This document shows positions 244 through 36,227 of a stretch of DNA of 38,037 nucleotides, in pieces. The DNA is from Candidatus Woesearchaeota archaeon. GTDB lineage: Archaea > Nanobdellota > Nanobdellia > Woesearchaeales > GW2011-AR4. Numbering within the stretch: position 1 is the first letter of the stretch; each line of letters starts with the position of its first letter. A program made the position numbers and the translations under genes. The stretch lies in NCBI GenBank assembly GCA_018303655.1, contig JAGVXT010000010.1:1-38037 (forward strand), given 5' to 3'. The notes under the pieces were generated by a model, which searched no databases, was not told where the DNA came from, and worked only from the letters and a program-made list of their open reading frames with translations.

Positions 244-933
244 AATCGTAGGGCGGATACCCACTTCTTTAGATGTGGGAGGAAGCCCGTCGTCCTCATT
301 CTTGTTTATAGCGAGAGGCACAATCTCGCTTAATGTATTTTGTTTACTTTTGAAAGCACTCTTGAGAATAAACAATCCAGCTTCTGGCTCAACACAATTT
401 CTTAGAATCTTGGTTTTGTCTATCCCATCATATTTTGAAAGGTCAAACCCTTTTAATTCTTGCAACGCTTCGTTTCCAGCATTGTGCATCCTATTAGCTT
501 TTTCTTTTCCATCAATGACAAAATTAGCCCAATAATAGTGCTGCCTATAAACAAATGGCTTAATTAGAGGGTCATAAAAGCTAATCACATTTTCAACACA
601 CCACTTGCCTTCAAAATAGGATTGTAAGAATATTATCTCTTCATACAACTTCATATCTGGAAAGATAGGTTTATTTTGTCATTTTGCAACTGCACTAAAT
701 CTTCTAATCTTAGAATGGCTTGGACATGGGGGACTACTCCATATAAAATCAAATTCTTCAAAATGTTCTTCCAAGTAAGCATGAGCATCACCAACAATAA
801 CTTTATCGTTGGGAAAGTTATCTTGATAGATTTTTGCAATGTCTGGATTAATTTCTACTGCTATCACTTCAATCTCCCCCCCCCAAAGCTTTCGGTTGCC
901 ACCGATTCCAGCATAAAGATTTAGGATTTTCAC
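238..933 (-). pseudogene. C5-cytosine DNA methyltransferase interrupted by one in-frame TGA (679-681)
   Basis: Same-frame pieces: MKILNLYAGIGGNRKLWG (motif I), SSPPCPSHS (PC motif IV), stop, then QNKPIFPDMKLYEEIIFLQ...WCVENV (ENV motif VI). GTG start overlaps the tnpA stop (GTGA). Confidence 0.85.
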
Positions 934-1481
934 GAGAAATCACCTATCTTTAATTGTCCTTTTAAGTTTGGAGGACAATTGTAGATATCGTATTCAAAAA
1001 CGCTTTTACCCATCTGCTCTTGAATGTAGCGTTTGACTTGTTCTTGTGAAACGTGTCCAGCCGAACCACAGTAGTAACCTCTTGCCCATAAAGCGTCAAA
1101 TCCTTTGCCGTAATGGTTTTGATAGCTCAAGTATCGCAGTTCAGGGAAAACTAACCTTAACTGCCTTGCTGTGTTTCCTTTTAGTTTGTGAATTATATCA
1201 CTTGGTCTTATCGTCGGTTTTCCGCTTACAAACAAATGCAAGTGGTTTGGCATAACTTCTAATGCAAGTTCCTGTATGCCAATCTCTTGGCATTGTCCAT
1301 GAATTATTTGTTTTAGCACTTCAATCACTTTTCCTATTAGTATTTCTTTTCTGTATTTGGGTATCCAAATCAAATGATAATTTATGTTGTATTTGCAATG
1401 GAAAGATGTTCTTACCGTTGCTATCTTGCTTTCAATCTTATGCACTTCTGGATTAAAGTGTGGATATATGTTTCTGGTCAT
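930..1481 (-). CDS. tnpA: IS200/IS605-family Y1 HUH transposase TnpA
   Basis: HLIWIPKYRK, HUH motif PNHLHLFV, catalytic-Tyr region YYCGSAGHVSQEQVKRYIQEQ; ATG at 1481 preferred over the track's GTG at 1490. Confidence 0.93.
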   Translation of the reverse strand: MTRNIYPHFNPEVHKIESKIATVRTSFHCKYNINYHLIWIPKYRKEILIGKVIEVLKQIIHGQCQEIGIQELALEVMPNHLHLFVSGKPTIRPSDIIHKLKGNTARQLRLVFPELRYLSYQNHYGKGFDALWARGYYCGSAGHVSQEQVKRYIQEQMGKSVFEYDIYNCPPNLKGQLKIGDFS

Positions 1482-1482
1482 T

Positions 1483-1509
1483 ACAACCACCTCATAACGT
1501 GGTGGTTGT
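1483..1509 (-). promoter_or_regulatory. 9-bp hairpin covering the tnpA Shine-Dalgarno
   Basis: ACAACCACC-TCATAACGT-GGTGGTTGT; the minus-strand SD-like GAGGTGG lies in the stem just upstream of ATG 1481. Confidence 0.65.
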
Positions 1510-8009: not shown

Positions 8010-9080
8010 GTGATGATACGTAAGTTAAAGTATAGCTCTAAATCGCAGGCAGCACTGGAATTCTTAACAACATATGCCTGGTTTTTTATAATTATAATAA
8101 TAGTAATATCAACTTTAGCATATTTTGGCATCCTAAGCCCGAGCAAATTGCTGCCGAAGAGGTGCAGTATGGGCCCGGAAATTGCATGCTTAAGCTTCAT
8201 TATAGGACAAACAGATGTTGGTGCGGGGGTTTTGAGGCTGAGATTAAGAAATAATCTTCCTGAGGCAATTATTATAGACTTATGGGGCATAACAAGTGAT
8301 GCTAAAACACCTTTTTCCTGTCTGCAAAAGCCAGCTACGGGAATTTGGCTGAGCGGTGAAATAAGGGATGCAGAGTTCACAGGCTGCAACAACGCTGAAT
8401 CCGGCTTAGTGCTTGGGGACAGGGGAAAAGTAAATGTAAAAATAAGCTATTATTTGGCCAGCACCAGCAGCACTTTTTCTAACAATGTTGAAGGGGAGGT
8501 CTTTACAACTGTAACGAGAGTTCAAAGCCTTTTGACACAAGTACAATGCTCTGATGGGGTAGACAATGATGGAAACGGCTGCATAGACTACGCAGGGGGA
8601 GATACAGGATGCAGCAGCGCTTCGGATACAGCAGAGAGCGGTGGCACATGTCCGCAGAATGGCGGCGGGGGCCTGGCACTTTATTGTTTTACATCAACTG
8701 TCTGCTCAACCACCATTGTATTTGGTATGTCTGATCTGAAAGATGCCCTTGCAGAGACCCCAAGCTCTGCAAATTATGACTACAAGGCATGCTGCAGGGC
8801 CACTAATGGTGCATTAAGCAATTCCTGTACATCACCTAATTTTATCCCATTCCATCTTTCCGATTCCACAGCTGCCCATGTTGAGAAAAACACGCAGTCA
8901 AACTACAATGTTAACGTCTGCCTGTCTGGCACCAGCAGCACAGTTTCATGCTACTATACAGCTTCAAGCTGTTCAGCGGATGAGACTTGCTTAGCAACAT
9001 ACTCTGCAGACACGGATGCGCATGTCGGAGACTGCGTTACGCAGCCTTTTGCCAACAAAATCTGCTGCAAACTGGTGTGA
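8010..9080 (+). CDS. Class III signal-peptide pilin-like surface protein with Cys-rich C-terminal region
   Basis: SKSQAALEFLTTYAWFFIIIIIV; CSDGVDNDGNGCIDYAGGDTGC Asp-rich motif; many Cys. Confidence 0.7.
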   Translation: MMIRKLKYSSKSQAALEFLTTYAWFFIIIIIVISTLAYFGILSPSKLLPKRCSMGPEIACLSFIIGQTDVGAGVLRLRLRNNLPEAIIIDLWGITSDAKTPFSCLQKPATGIWLSGEIRDAEFTGCNNAESGLVLGDRGKVNVKISYYLASTSSTFSNNVEGEVFTTVTRVQSLLTQVQCSDGVDNDGNGCIDYAGGDTGCSSASDTAESGGTCPQNGGGGLALYCFTSTVCSTTIVFGMSDLKDALAETPSSANYDYKACCRATNGALSNSCTSPNFIPFHLSDSTAAHVEKNTQSNYNVNVCLSGTSSTVSCYYTASSCSADETCLATYSADTDAHVGDCVTQPFANKICCKLV

Positions 9081-9788: not shown

Positions 9789-11924
9789 ATGGTTGGTAAA
9801 AATATAAATGAAAAAAAAAGTTTCCCATTAAAATCAATGCAAAAAGATGGCGTAGCGCCAGCTCTAAAAAACTTTAAGCATATTTTTATTATTGTTGCAT
9901 TAAATTTATTGTTGCTTACTTTTGTTTTTGCAGATAATTTTCCTGCTACACCTCCATTACCAGCATCGCATCCTACTTTATATTCAGATACAATAACAAG
10001 CAAGACTGATGCAAGCCCTGTAAGCATTGCAGATTCCCAAGGATTGTTTGTGACTGGAGATATAACAACTTTGGGAAATGTTGGGATCGGGACTACGAAT
10101 CCGGGACAGAAACTTGAAATTGCAGGGAATATCCAATTAACCGGAGGTGCGCGGCAGGTGCTCCTTGGTAATGGTCAGGGAATGGTTGACGATGGAGGGG
10201 CTAACCTGAAGCTGGGCAGCGCACCTGGAACTCGGGTCTATCTCGCACCCGGTGGGACAGACACATTAACTGCACTTCCATCCGGCAACGTCGGGATTGG
10301 GACGACGGGACCGACGCAACAACTAGCTTTAGGAGGGACTGTTGGGAATTTTGGTATGTCAACTGCTGACGCTTCTGATAATGCGATTTTACAGATTAGT
10401 GGCGGTGGGACTGCGGGAACAAATCGCGGCTCTTATATTAACTTATACGGTAATGAACATACGCAAGCCGGAAAGATGCAATTTTTCACAGGCACTGGAT
10501 CGGGCGGTGGAAATAATTTTGAGTTTTATACTGACCAAAGCGGCGGCGCGACGGCAAAATTGACTATATTACCCAGCGGCAACGTCGGCATCGGGACGGC
10601 GAATCCTATACACCTCTTGCATTTATATAAAGCAGGAAACACAGAACTTGCGCTCGATAGGGCGACTAAGGCTGGCGGGTCAGCATACGTTAAATATGTA
10701 ACAGGGGGAGTTGATGATTGGTATGTGGGTATGCCGACGAATCAAGATTACTATATGGTGTCTCCTGATGGGACTAAAGGATTGTTTATTGAAAAATCCG
10801 GCGGCAATGTCGGCATTGGGACAACGAGTCCGGGATACAAGCTTGATGTGCAAGGCGCTGGCGGAGTTTTGAATGTTAAGCGCACCAGTGGCTCTACAAT
10901 GGCAGCACTTTTTGAGTATGATGCGGCTTCTGGCGGGCTGCTTGGCTTAAAGAACACCGCAACTGGCGATCAGTACCATTTCTCTGTTACGCCAGATTTT
11001 GTAATTTCAGAATCTGCTGTTGCCGACAGGTTTACCATTAAGAAAACTTCCGGCAACGTTGGCATCGGGACAACGAGTCCGGGGAGCAAGCTTGAAGTCA
11101 GCGGTGCTTCCCCAGTTCTTACAATACGCCCTACGGGAGTTGGAGAAATGTCAAGGATTCGATTTCTAAACAGCGCGGGCGCCGTTATTGGGGATTTCGC
11201 TGTTGATACCGGAGGGAATATGGCAATAACCCATACGCTTCAGGATGCATCCATAACTTTTACCACCAAAGATGCAATAGGACAGTCGGAACGAATGAGA
11301 ATTACGGGAAGCGGCAACGTTGGCATCGGGACAACGAGTCCGAACCGTTTGTTGCAAGTAAGGTCATCAAATCCTGAAATTTCACTTATTAATACTAATA
11401 ATCATGAATGGATCATGACGCAGGGTATTGCTGGTGTTACTAATGATTTCCAGTTGTATGAAAGTGGAGGCGCGGGCCAGTTTGTTATCAAAACAGGCGG
11501 CAACGTCGGCATTGGGACGACTATACCAGCTTACAAACTAGATGTAGCAGGGGACGCACATGCAACAAGCTTCCCAACATCATCAGATATAAGGCTAAAG
11601 AAAAATATTACACAAATTGCAAATGTATTAGATAAATTAGAGAAAATTCATGGTGTTAAATTTGAGTGGAATGAAAAATACAAGCAACTTGGAAGGGCAA
11701 CGAATGGAACCCAGATTGGAATCATTGCGCAAGACGTTGAAAAAGAATTTCCTGAGCTGGTGACAACATGGGGAAATGAAAGCTACAGGGCTGTTGATTA
11801 TGGAAGGTTTAGCGCTGTTTTGCTGGAAGCGGTCAAAGAGCAGCAAAATGAAATTGATGAATTAAAAGCACAGAACCAATATTTAAGTGAAAAAATTAAT
11901 GGAATAATTTCGAGGATTAAATAA
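9789..11924 (+). CDS. Secreted tail-fibre-like protein with C-terminal peptidase S74 (endosialidase chaperone) domain
   Basis: N-terminal hydrophobic segment; seven GNVGIGTT/GTA units; SSDIRLKKNITQIANVLDKLEKIHGVKFEWN...GIIAQDVEKEFPELV. Confidence 0.88.
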   Translation: MVGKNINEKKSFPLKSMQKDGVAPALKNFKHIFIIVALNLLLLTFVFADNFPATPPLPASHPTLYSDTITSKTDASPVSIADSQGLFVTGDITTLGNVGIGTTNPGQKLEIAGNIQLTGGARQVLLGNGQGMVDDGGANLKLGSAPGTRVYLAPGGTDTLTALPSGNVGIGTTGPTQQLALGGTVGNFGMSTADASDNAILQISGGGTAGTNRGSYINLYGNEHTQAGKMQFFTGTGSGGGNNFEFYTDQSGGATAKLTILPSGNVGIGTANPIHLLHLYKAGNTELALDRATKAGGSAYVKYVTGGVDDWYVGMPTNQDYYMVSPDGTKGLFIEKSGGNVGIGTTSPGYKLDVQGAGGVLNVKRTSGSTMAALFEYDAASGGLLGLKNTATGDQYHFSVTPDFVISESAVADRFTIKKTSGNVGIGTTSPGSKLEVSGASPVLTIRPTGVGEMSRIRFLNSAGAVIGDFAVDTGGNMAITHTLQDASITFTTKDAIGQSERMRITGSGNVGIGTTSPNRLLQVRSSNPEISLINTNNHEWIMTQGIAGVTNDFQLYESGGAGQFVIKTGGNVGIGTTIPAYKLDVAGDAHATSFPTSSDIRLKKNITQIANVLDKLEKIHGVKFEWNEKYKQLGRATNGTQIGIIAQDVEKEFPELVTTWGNESYRAVDYGRFSAVLLEAVKEQQNEIDELKAQNQYLSEKINGIISRIK

Positions 11925-12042
11925 ATTTATTTTGGAAAATGCCATCTGAAACATAAAATCAAAAATTGATGTACCTAATTGCTAGTTGCAAGGATGCAAC
12001 AAAACAAAAGTTTTAAATAAAAGAATTGTTAAGGTTTTAAAA

Positions 12043-12540
12043 ATGCTTAGAAAAAAGAGGAATAAGTCACAGGCAGCCTTAGAATTCCTTACAACATACG
12101 GCTGGGCATTCTTAATAATTATAATAATGATAAGCGTGCTTGCTTATTTTGGAGTGTTAAGCCCGAGCAAGCTGCTTCCAAACAGGTGCAATTTCGGCCC
12201 TGAGTTTCCGTGCCTTAGCTATCAGATATCAGCAACAGGCAGCACATTCAAACTGAGATTAAGGAATGGCTTGGCTGAGCCAATAAACATTGAGTCAATT
12301 TCTTTAGCAACAGAAGGCGCTGCTGCATATACTGGCTGCACTCCATCTGGGTTTAGTATTCCGTTTACTTCATGGAGAGCAGGCAATACAACAGACTTTG
12401 TATGGACAGGCTGCACAGGAGGCGGGCTAGTTGCCGGTGACAAGGGAAAGGTTTTGATAACTATAAGGTACTACCCAATGCTTAGCGGCTCTGCTTACGC
12501 AAATGAGGTAAAAGGCGAAGTATTCTCCAGTGTTGTATAA
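12043..12540 (+). CDS. Class III signal-peptide pilin-like protein, paralogue of 8010-9080
   Basis: KSQAALEFLTTYGWAFLIIIIMISVLAYFGVLSPSKLLPNRC; internal ATG at 12043 preferred. Confidence 0.75.
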   Translation: MLRKKRNKSQAALEFLTTYGWAFLIIIIMISVLAYFGVLSPSKLLPNRCNFGPEFPCLSYQISATGSTFKLRLRNGLAEPINIESISLATEGAAAYTGCTPSGFSIPFTSWRAGNTTDFVWTGCTGGGLVAGDKGKVLITIRYYPMLSGSAYANEVKGEVFSSVV

Positions 12541-23722: not shown

Positions 23723-24211
23723 TTACCTCACAATTATTTTTCCTTTCATGTTGCTGTGGCCGGAGCCGCAAAACACAGAGCAGAATGCCGTGAAAGTTCC
23801 TTCCTTGTCTGCTGTGAACTCAATTGTAACAGGCTTTCCAGGGTCAAGCCTCTCATTGATGCCATATTCTGGAATTGAAATTCCATGCGGCACATCAGTT
23901 GTTGTGACAATAAGCCTTACTTTGTCGCCTTTGTTCACTTCTATTGTTTCGGGTATAAATGAAAACTGCTTTGCCGTCATTTTGAATTCTTTGACTTCTG
24001 CTGATGCGGGTGTTTGTGTTGGTGCTTGTGTTGTTGATGCTGCTTCTTCCCCAACTATCTTTTCTTCAATTTGATTGTTGCCTGATGGCGTTTGCTGCTG
24101 CACTGGGTTTCCTTGTCCAATTAAGTCTTCTGATTTTCCTGCTGGTTTTTGCTGTGCACAAGCACTTGCTAAAAATATGCTTATCAATAATAACACTATT
24201 ATCTTTCTCAT
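23723..24211 (-). CDS. Cupredoxin lipoprotein with CuA-type motif (second copy)
   Basis: Lipobox FLASAC; VPHGISIPEYGIN...CSVFCGSGHSNMKGKIIV. Confidence 0.88.
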   Translation of the reverse strand: MRKIIVLLLISIFLASACAQQKPAGKSEDLIGQGNPVQQQTPSGNNQIEEKIVGEEAASTTQAPTQTPASAEVKEFKMTAKQFSFIPETIEVNKGDKVRLIVTTTDVPHGISIPEYGINERLDPGKPVTIEFTADKEGTFTAFCSVFCGSGHSNMKGKIIVR

Positions 24212-24239: not shown

Positions 24240-24337
24240 TATAGAGAATTTTGACAAATTTATAAATAATCAAAATTCTCTAAGAGGACTTTGAATCTAT
24301 AAGGTTTATAATAGGTTATTCAAAGTCCCCTATATAA
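24240..24337. repeat. Double-hairpin dispersed repeat, copy R1
   Basis: TAGAGAATTTTGA/TCAAAATTCTCTA and GGACTTTGAAT/ATTCAAAGTCC stems, bounded by TATAGAG...CTATATAA. Confidence 0.85.
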
Positions 24338-24446
24338 TCTAGCATGAAAACCTTGGGCTTATTAAACTTTATTTTTTGAGAAAAAAGACAAAATTGAGCT
24401 TTTTTGCGTTCATAGGGCATTATTTGAGTTTTAGGAAATCAAATGC

Positions 24447-36127: not shown

Positions 36128-36227
36128 TATAGAGAATTTTGAAATACATAAATTTTGTCAAAATTCTCTAAGAGAACTTTGAATGTAAAGTAATAAAATG
36201 GCAGGTTATTCAAAGTTCTCTATATAA
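36128..36227. repeat. Double-hairpin dispersed repeat, copy R2
   Basis: TAGAGAATTTTGA/TCAAAATTCTCTA and GAACTTTGAAT/ATTCAAAGTTC stems, same order and orientation as R1. Confidence 0.85.

Follow-up and report, generated by a model that had tools for sequence, protein, structure and literature searches.

Two double hairpins and their genomic context

The DNA analyzed here, referred to as the window, is a stretch of 38,037 nt (positions 1-38,037 of the forward strand of contig JAGVXT010000010.1; assembly GCA_018303655.1) from a Candidatus Woesearchaeota archaeon (GW2011-AR4). On its minus strand, it encodes an IS200/IS605-type TnpA (930-1490; Y1_Tnp, E 1.8e-33), which is adjoined by a short fragment of a C-5 cytosine methylase (679-933). 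A plus-strand gene (9789-11924) codes for a 711-amino-acid protein in which GNVGIGTT motifs are repeated and whose C-terminus bears an endosialidase chaperone domain (Peptidase_S74); it is bracketed by two proteins whose N-terminal membrane segments resemble each other (8010-9080 and 11986-12540). A cupredoxin gene is located at 23723-24211, and next to it lies R1, one of two copies of a double-hairpin repeat present in the window; the other copy, R2, occupies positions 36128-36224.

Both perfect stems that the first-pass annotation had described for R1 were recovered at the places given for them. The arms of stem 1, TAGAGAATTTTGA (24242-24254) and TCAAAATTCTCTA (24270-24282), pair over 13 bp and are spaced by 28 bp from start to start, while those of stem 2, GGACTTTGAAT (24286-24296) and ATTCAAAGTCC (24318-24328), pair over 11 bp. 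The layout of R2 matches that of R1, so that the reported recurrence of order, orientation and first-stem spacing also holds. Perfect 13-bp stems with loops of up to 30 nt are confined within the window to R1 and R2; when the window was Markov-resampled, no such stem was present in 28 of 30 resampled windows, and two in the other two.

The repeat had been delimited as a unit of about 98 bp (24240-24337). It is real, but its true bounds are slightly narrower: the element proper, GAGAATTTTGA...TCAAAGTTCTC, is bounded by 4-bp direct repeats that nearly always read TATA. R1 is thus an 87-bp element on the plus strand (24244-24330) with terminal inverted repeats GAGAATTTTGA / GGGGACTTTGAATAACC, and it is flanked by TATA on the left (24240-24243) and on the right (24331-24334), a 4-bp repeat on both sides that agrees with the length of the empty sites of relatives. 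Its hairpin 1 (24242-24282, plus strand) possesses a 15-nt loop, and its hairpin 2 (24284-24330, plus strand) bears one compensated and one uncompensated change. R2 measures 89 bp (36132-36220, plus strand, orientation as in R1) and lies between TATA at 36128-36131 and TATA at 36221-36224. The divergence of the loops that had been noted is likewise genuine, but it reflects in part the existence of subfamilies, since three further copies have almost the same right-hand loop as R2.

The insertion of R1 at the cupredoxin gene

Upstream of the cupredoxin gene, a 40-nt block, AAAGTTTAATAARCCCAARGTTTTCATGCTARATTATATA (24331-24370, minus strand), is conserved in relatives across the genus (loci L056, L073, L071, L063, L074, L058 and L059), and R1 is inserted at its TATATA end. 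As a consequence of this insertion, the upstream region of a real gene is altered: the block stands 119 nt from the start codon in the window versus 25-26 nt in most relatives (L073, L071, L063, L074 and L059). For L058, the first open start is found 7 nt after the block, and the start that is probably correct (MKK...) follows six codons later, at 25 nt. A second copy of the block (L056, in genome G018) precedes a different membrane-protein gene by 126 nt. The block is possibly a shared promoter or a metal-responsive site.

An aim of the element at promoter TATA boxes was considered and rejected. Using copies at most 150 nt upstream of a start, with gene starts taken from crude ORF calls, 27% of 30 placed copies were found 22-34 nt from the start versus 23% of other intergenic TATA sequences; hence, apart from the TATA target itself, no preference for promoters is seen.

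Copies and distribution

A simple segmental duplication without further copies had been named in the first-pass annotation as the outcome that would speak against its reading of the repeat. The search of the host's own genome came out the opposite way, as many copies with unrelated flanks were found. The host assembly (1,262,951 bases in 37 contigs; 88% complete) carries ten full copies of 87-89 bp, eight of them in addition to R1 and R2, along with fragments and a solo hairpin. The likeness between copies ends at TATAGAG on one side and at CTCTATA on the other. Their identities range from 70% to 98%, with R1 as the most diverged copy, and a near-identical pair on contig 33 points to a fairly recent spread.

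Across all loci, 57 elements were placed, most of them 87-90 bp and overall 37-305 bp in length; the family is therefore short (under about 300 bp), devoid of coding capacity and dispersed in many copies, as is expected of MITEs. Matches were obtained in 18 of the 39 genomes searched. The end motif, with at most one mismatch, is present in 19 of the 20 genomes of the genus, a count to be read with the control in mind that single one-mismatch motifs also occur by chance; its exact form, TATAGAGARYTTTGA, is patchily distributed over the order, in 67 of 353 genomes. Among named genomes, the central junction of the element occurs in 48 stretches, of which 47 bear Woesearchaeota in their titles and one Nanoarchaeota, and a scan of viral contigs for this junction gave no match. 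Another genome of the order, G145, is densely populated by the same end motif, 50 times in forward and 53 times in reverse orientation. In genomes G073 and G123, there are double-hairpin MITEs whose inner sequences differ, and the double-hairpin layout is thus not confined to the genus.

Target duplications and empty sites

For the analysis of flanks and stems, 54 distinct double elements were compared in a fixed orientation, two of these entries being misassigned nested-loop copies. The terminal inverted repeats GAGAATTTTGA / GAGAACTTTGA mark the two ends of these double copies. The four flanking bases read TATA/TATA in 46 of them, five have identical flanks other than TATA (TAAA twice, AATA, TATT and TGAA), and one decayed copy has the unequal pair TGTA/TATA. 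Further matched pairs are TTTA/TTTA and TAAA/TAAA. Since these matched variants stand in direct orientation, they argue for a 4-bp duplication and not for a longer inverted repeat; the TATA on either side lies outside the element.

Empty sites provide the counterpart to these duplications. The R1 site is empty in six relatives, whose TTTTATATATAATT has the length predicted by a single TATA. At the site of copy C13, genome G005 reads GTTTTTATATCTTT with one TATA; in the host, the element is found there with a TATA on each side. The element at the site of copy C28 is common to the host, G005 and G011, and it is absent from G015, G001 and G013.

A probable IS5-type partner insertion sequence

A protein search across the order uncovered intact insertion sequences at loci L241 and L242, which belong to the same order as the host but to other families. 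Each is 1,199 bp long and flanked by TATA; the ends of the first read GAGAGTTTTGAATAACCC / GAGAACTTTGAATAACCC, and those of the second read GAGGACTTTGAATAACCC on both sides. Their transposases (330-331 amino acids) score 204 and 195 bits against the NCBIfam IS5 model (NF033581; cut-off 140), with DUF772 and DDE_Tnp_1 above the Pfam cut-offs, and are thus IS5-type DDE enzymes. These insertion sequences thus represent autonomous elements that share ends and target with the MITE. The right end of the L241 element is GAGAACTTTGAATAACCCT; the right end of the MITE copy in L127 is identical to it across these 19 bases and that of R2 across the first 17. The right end of R2, GAGAACTTTGAATAACC, equals that of the insertion sequence. 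The match between MITE and insertion sequence is limited to about 11-19 bp per end.

Within the genus, the DDE_Tnp_1 loci that were checked for MITE ends yielded one dead copy only, L238 in the relative G017. It measures 837 bp, has the ends GAGAGCTTTGAAAA and GAGAGTTTTGAAAA with TATA on both sides, and retains both ends of an IS5-type transposase whose middle is missing. Neither the host assembly (88% complete) nor the host's family yielded a related transposase other than that of this dead element, for which reason the active partner is inferred from insertion sequences of the order's other families. An end-motif pair 2 kb apart (L106 in G008) was assessed as a candidate insertion sequence and discarded, as it encloses unrelated genes.

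At position 6 of the terminal repeat, L241 has T on the left and C on the right, and L242 has C at both ends. The outer ends of the MITE carry T on the left and C on the right, and each inner arm matches its own hairpin partner (T-T and C-C). In R1, both arms of hairpin 1 are accordingly of the T type, corresponding to the left end of the intact L241 element, and both arms of hairpin 2 are of the C type, corresponding to its right end. The sequence CTC-TAA-GAG joins the two hairpins in 49 of the 54 double elements. In remnants of insertion sequences in G145 (L245, L252 and L257), the left end is already palindromised into a hairpin, which makes this genome a good one for studying the origin of the double form.

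Several variant forms exist. Solo forms measure 37 and 48 bp, or 45 and 56 bp when the duplications are counted, and fit recombination between the repeated arms. Long forms of 143-305 bp have extra palindromes in their loops, and a single site can harbor two forms, plain in G004 and long in G010. Nested loop palindromes such as GAAAATCCAAGATTTTC and AAAAATTGCATTGCAATTTTT were seen in L107, L110, L113, L117, L153, L154, L158, L115, L116 and L118. A palindrome with AT-rich arms, GAGCATGCTC, is located near or inside several copies of relatives (L111:154-163, L153:375-384, L165:397-406, L062:1446-1455 and others); an exact copy of it is absent from the window.

Changes in the stems

The difference between R1 and R2 in a pair of stem 2, G-C in R1 and A-T in R2 and most other copies, was correctly observed in the first-pass annotation. 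Because the left arm carries A in nine of the ten host copies, G-C is the derived state. Two pairs further out, R1 has an uncompensated change that places A opposite C, and its perfect stem 2 for this reason ends at 11 bp.

Selection on structure, the first of the two explanations offered for this compensatory change, is not supported by the family as a whole. Across the 54 double elements, 47 stem changes are one-sided (38 mismatches and nine G-T pairs) versus four compensated pairs in three copies, R1 included; one-sided changes therefore dominate where compensation would be expected of a structured-RNA family. In the three C28 copies, which the host, G005 and G011 have inherited at an orthologous site, the stem deviations from the family consensus are one-sided and never compensated, so that the stems are not preserved once the element has inserted. 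No Rfam match was obtained in the window.

The second explanation that had been offered, gene conversion of the arms, fares somewhat better. When arms were shuffled among copies, a mean of 0.58 compensated pairs resulted, and four were reached in about 0.15% of the trials, an excess that shared ancestry can inflate. The four observed pairs exceed the shuffle mean, which allows for occasional copying from arm to arm but not for selection as the main cause. A more far-reaching variant, in which fold-back copying during transposition or repair repeatedly palindromises and homogenises the ends, would explain both the same-type arms and the compensated excess; we regard it as rather unlikely. The excess is small, and it is left unexplained when the repeat is read as a MITE.

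Identity and origin of the element

Taken together, the terminal inverted repeats, the 4-bp duplication, the unrelated sites, the empty sites of relatives and the matching intact insertion sequences make it highly probable that the double hairpin is a gene-less MITE whose ends and target site are those of an IS5-family insertion sequence. In the process that we envision, an IS5-family DDE transposase would bind the GAGAAYTTTGAATAACC ends and cut the element out, which would then be joined into staggered cuts at TATA, with fill-in leaving TATA on both sides. In the simplest reconstruction, the two hairpins would be two fused palindromised ends of an insertion sequence that has lost everything in between. 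The stems pair since the element consists of transposon ends copied in inverted orientation, and the hairpins are a by-product of these repeated ends without upkeep by selection after insertion.

A structured RNA or DNA element held by selection on its two hairpins, for instance with a role in regulation, in termination or as a target of RNase, might be suggested by the predicted folds, which are stable on both strands, by the position of R1 just upstream of the cupredoxin gene, and by the number of compensated pairs above the shuffle level. We nevertheless consider it very unlikely: the one-sided changes far outnumber these pairs, decay is one-sided even where three species have inherited the copy at one site, Rfam offers no match, and target duplications and empty sites would be unexpected. 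Moreover, no preference for gene ends is evident, as 14, 14, 9 and 9 copies are distributed over the four gene orientations.

Two other types of mobile DNA deserve attention. IS200/IS605 ends bear subterminal hairpins, and with a Y1 transposase gene present in the window (930-1490), its TnpA might have moved a palindrome-associated element; elements of this type, however, generate no target duplication and possess no terminal inverted repeats, whereas the double hairpin has both, with duplications of variable sequence, and DDE insertion sequences share its ends. There is, in our view, scarcely any chance that this explanation is correct. The same negligible credence is given to a MITE from a different TA-type family (IS630/Tc1-mariner) in which TA is duplicated. 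TA does flank every TATA copy, and IS630-type transposases are present in the genus, but their loci, examined as candidate partners, lack MITE ends; TTTA, TAAA, AATA or TGAA on both sides reveals a 4-bp duplication, and the lengths of the empty sites agree with TATA, not TA.

Comparison with known systems

Woesearchaeota are mostly known from metagenomes, and their mobile elements have been little described. We found no published report of this MITE family in the literature. The IS5-type MITE described here, with defined ends and a defined target site, provides this group with such a family, and it explains many woesearchaeal hairpin repeats that could pass for conserved RNAs.

MITEs with IS5-family partners, such as ISMma12, ISMba19, ISMac15 and IsMbu10, have been reported from Methanosarcina and M. 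burtonii (PMC3852290), and MITEs of other archaea have been reviewed (PMC10969869). The Methanosarcina and M. burtonii MITEs share with the woesearchaeal family a short, non-coding sequence, terminal inverted repeats, an IS5-family partner and several copies per genome; their listed lengths are 140-252 bp, their repeats comprise 15-17 bp and their duplications 0 or 3 bp (PMC3852290), whereas the Woesearchaeota MITE has 87-89 bp, two hairpins and a 4-bp TATA duplication, and resides in a different archaeal lineage. The BOX and RUP repeats of Streptococcus pneumoniae are likewise MITE-like, interspersed and tightly folded, and BOX is modular and variable in length (PMC3049150). BOX varies by whole tandem boxB modules (PMC3049150), however, while the loops of the Woesearchaeota MITE gain nested palindromes and its ends match an IS5-family insertion sequence. 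Double-hairpin elements of fungal mitochondria, as cited in PMC2800124, also consist of two hairpins each, are dispersed and are apparently mobile, and for the Allomyces elements the paper reports no duplicated flanks typical of DNA transposition (PMC2800124); the Woesearchaeota MITE, by contrast, has target duplications as well as terminal inverted repeats, and a DNA-transposon partner has been identified for it. As IS5-partnered archaeal MITEs have already been described, the woesearchaeal family is ordinary in kind, and it is its double-palindrome layout that is unusual.
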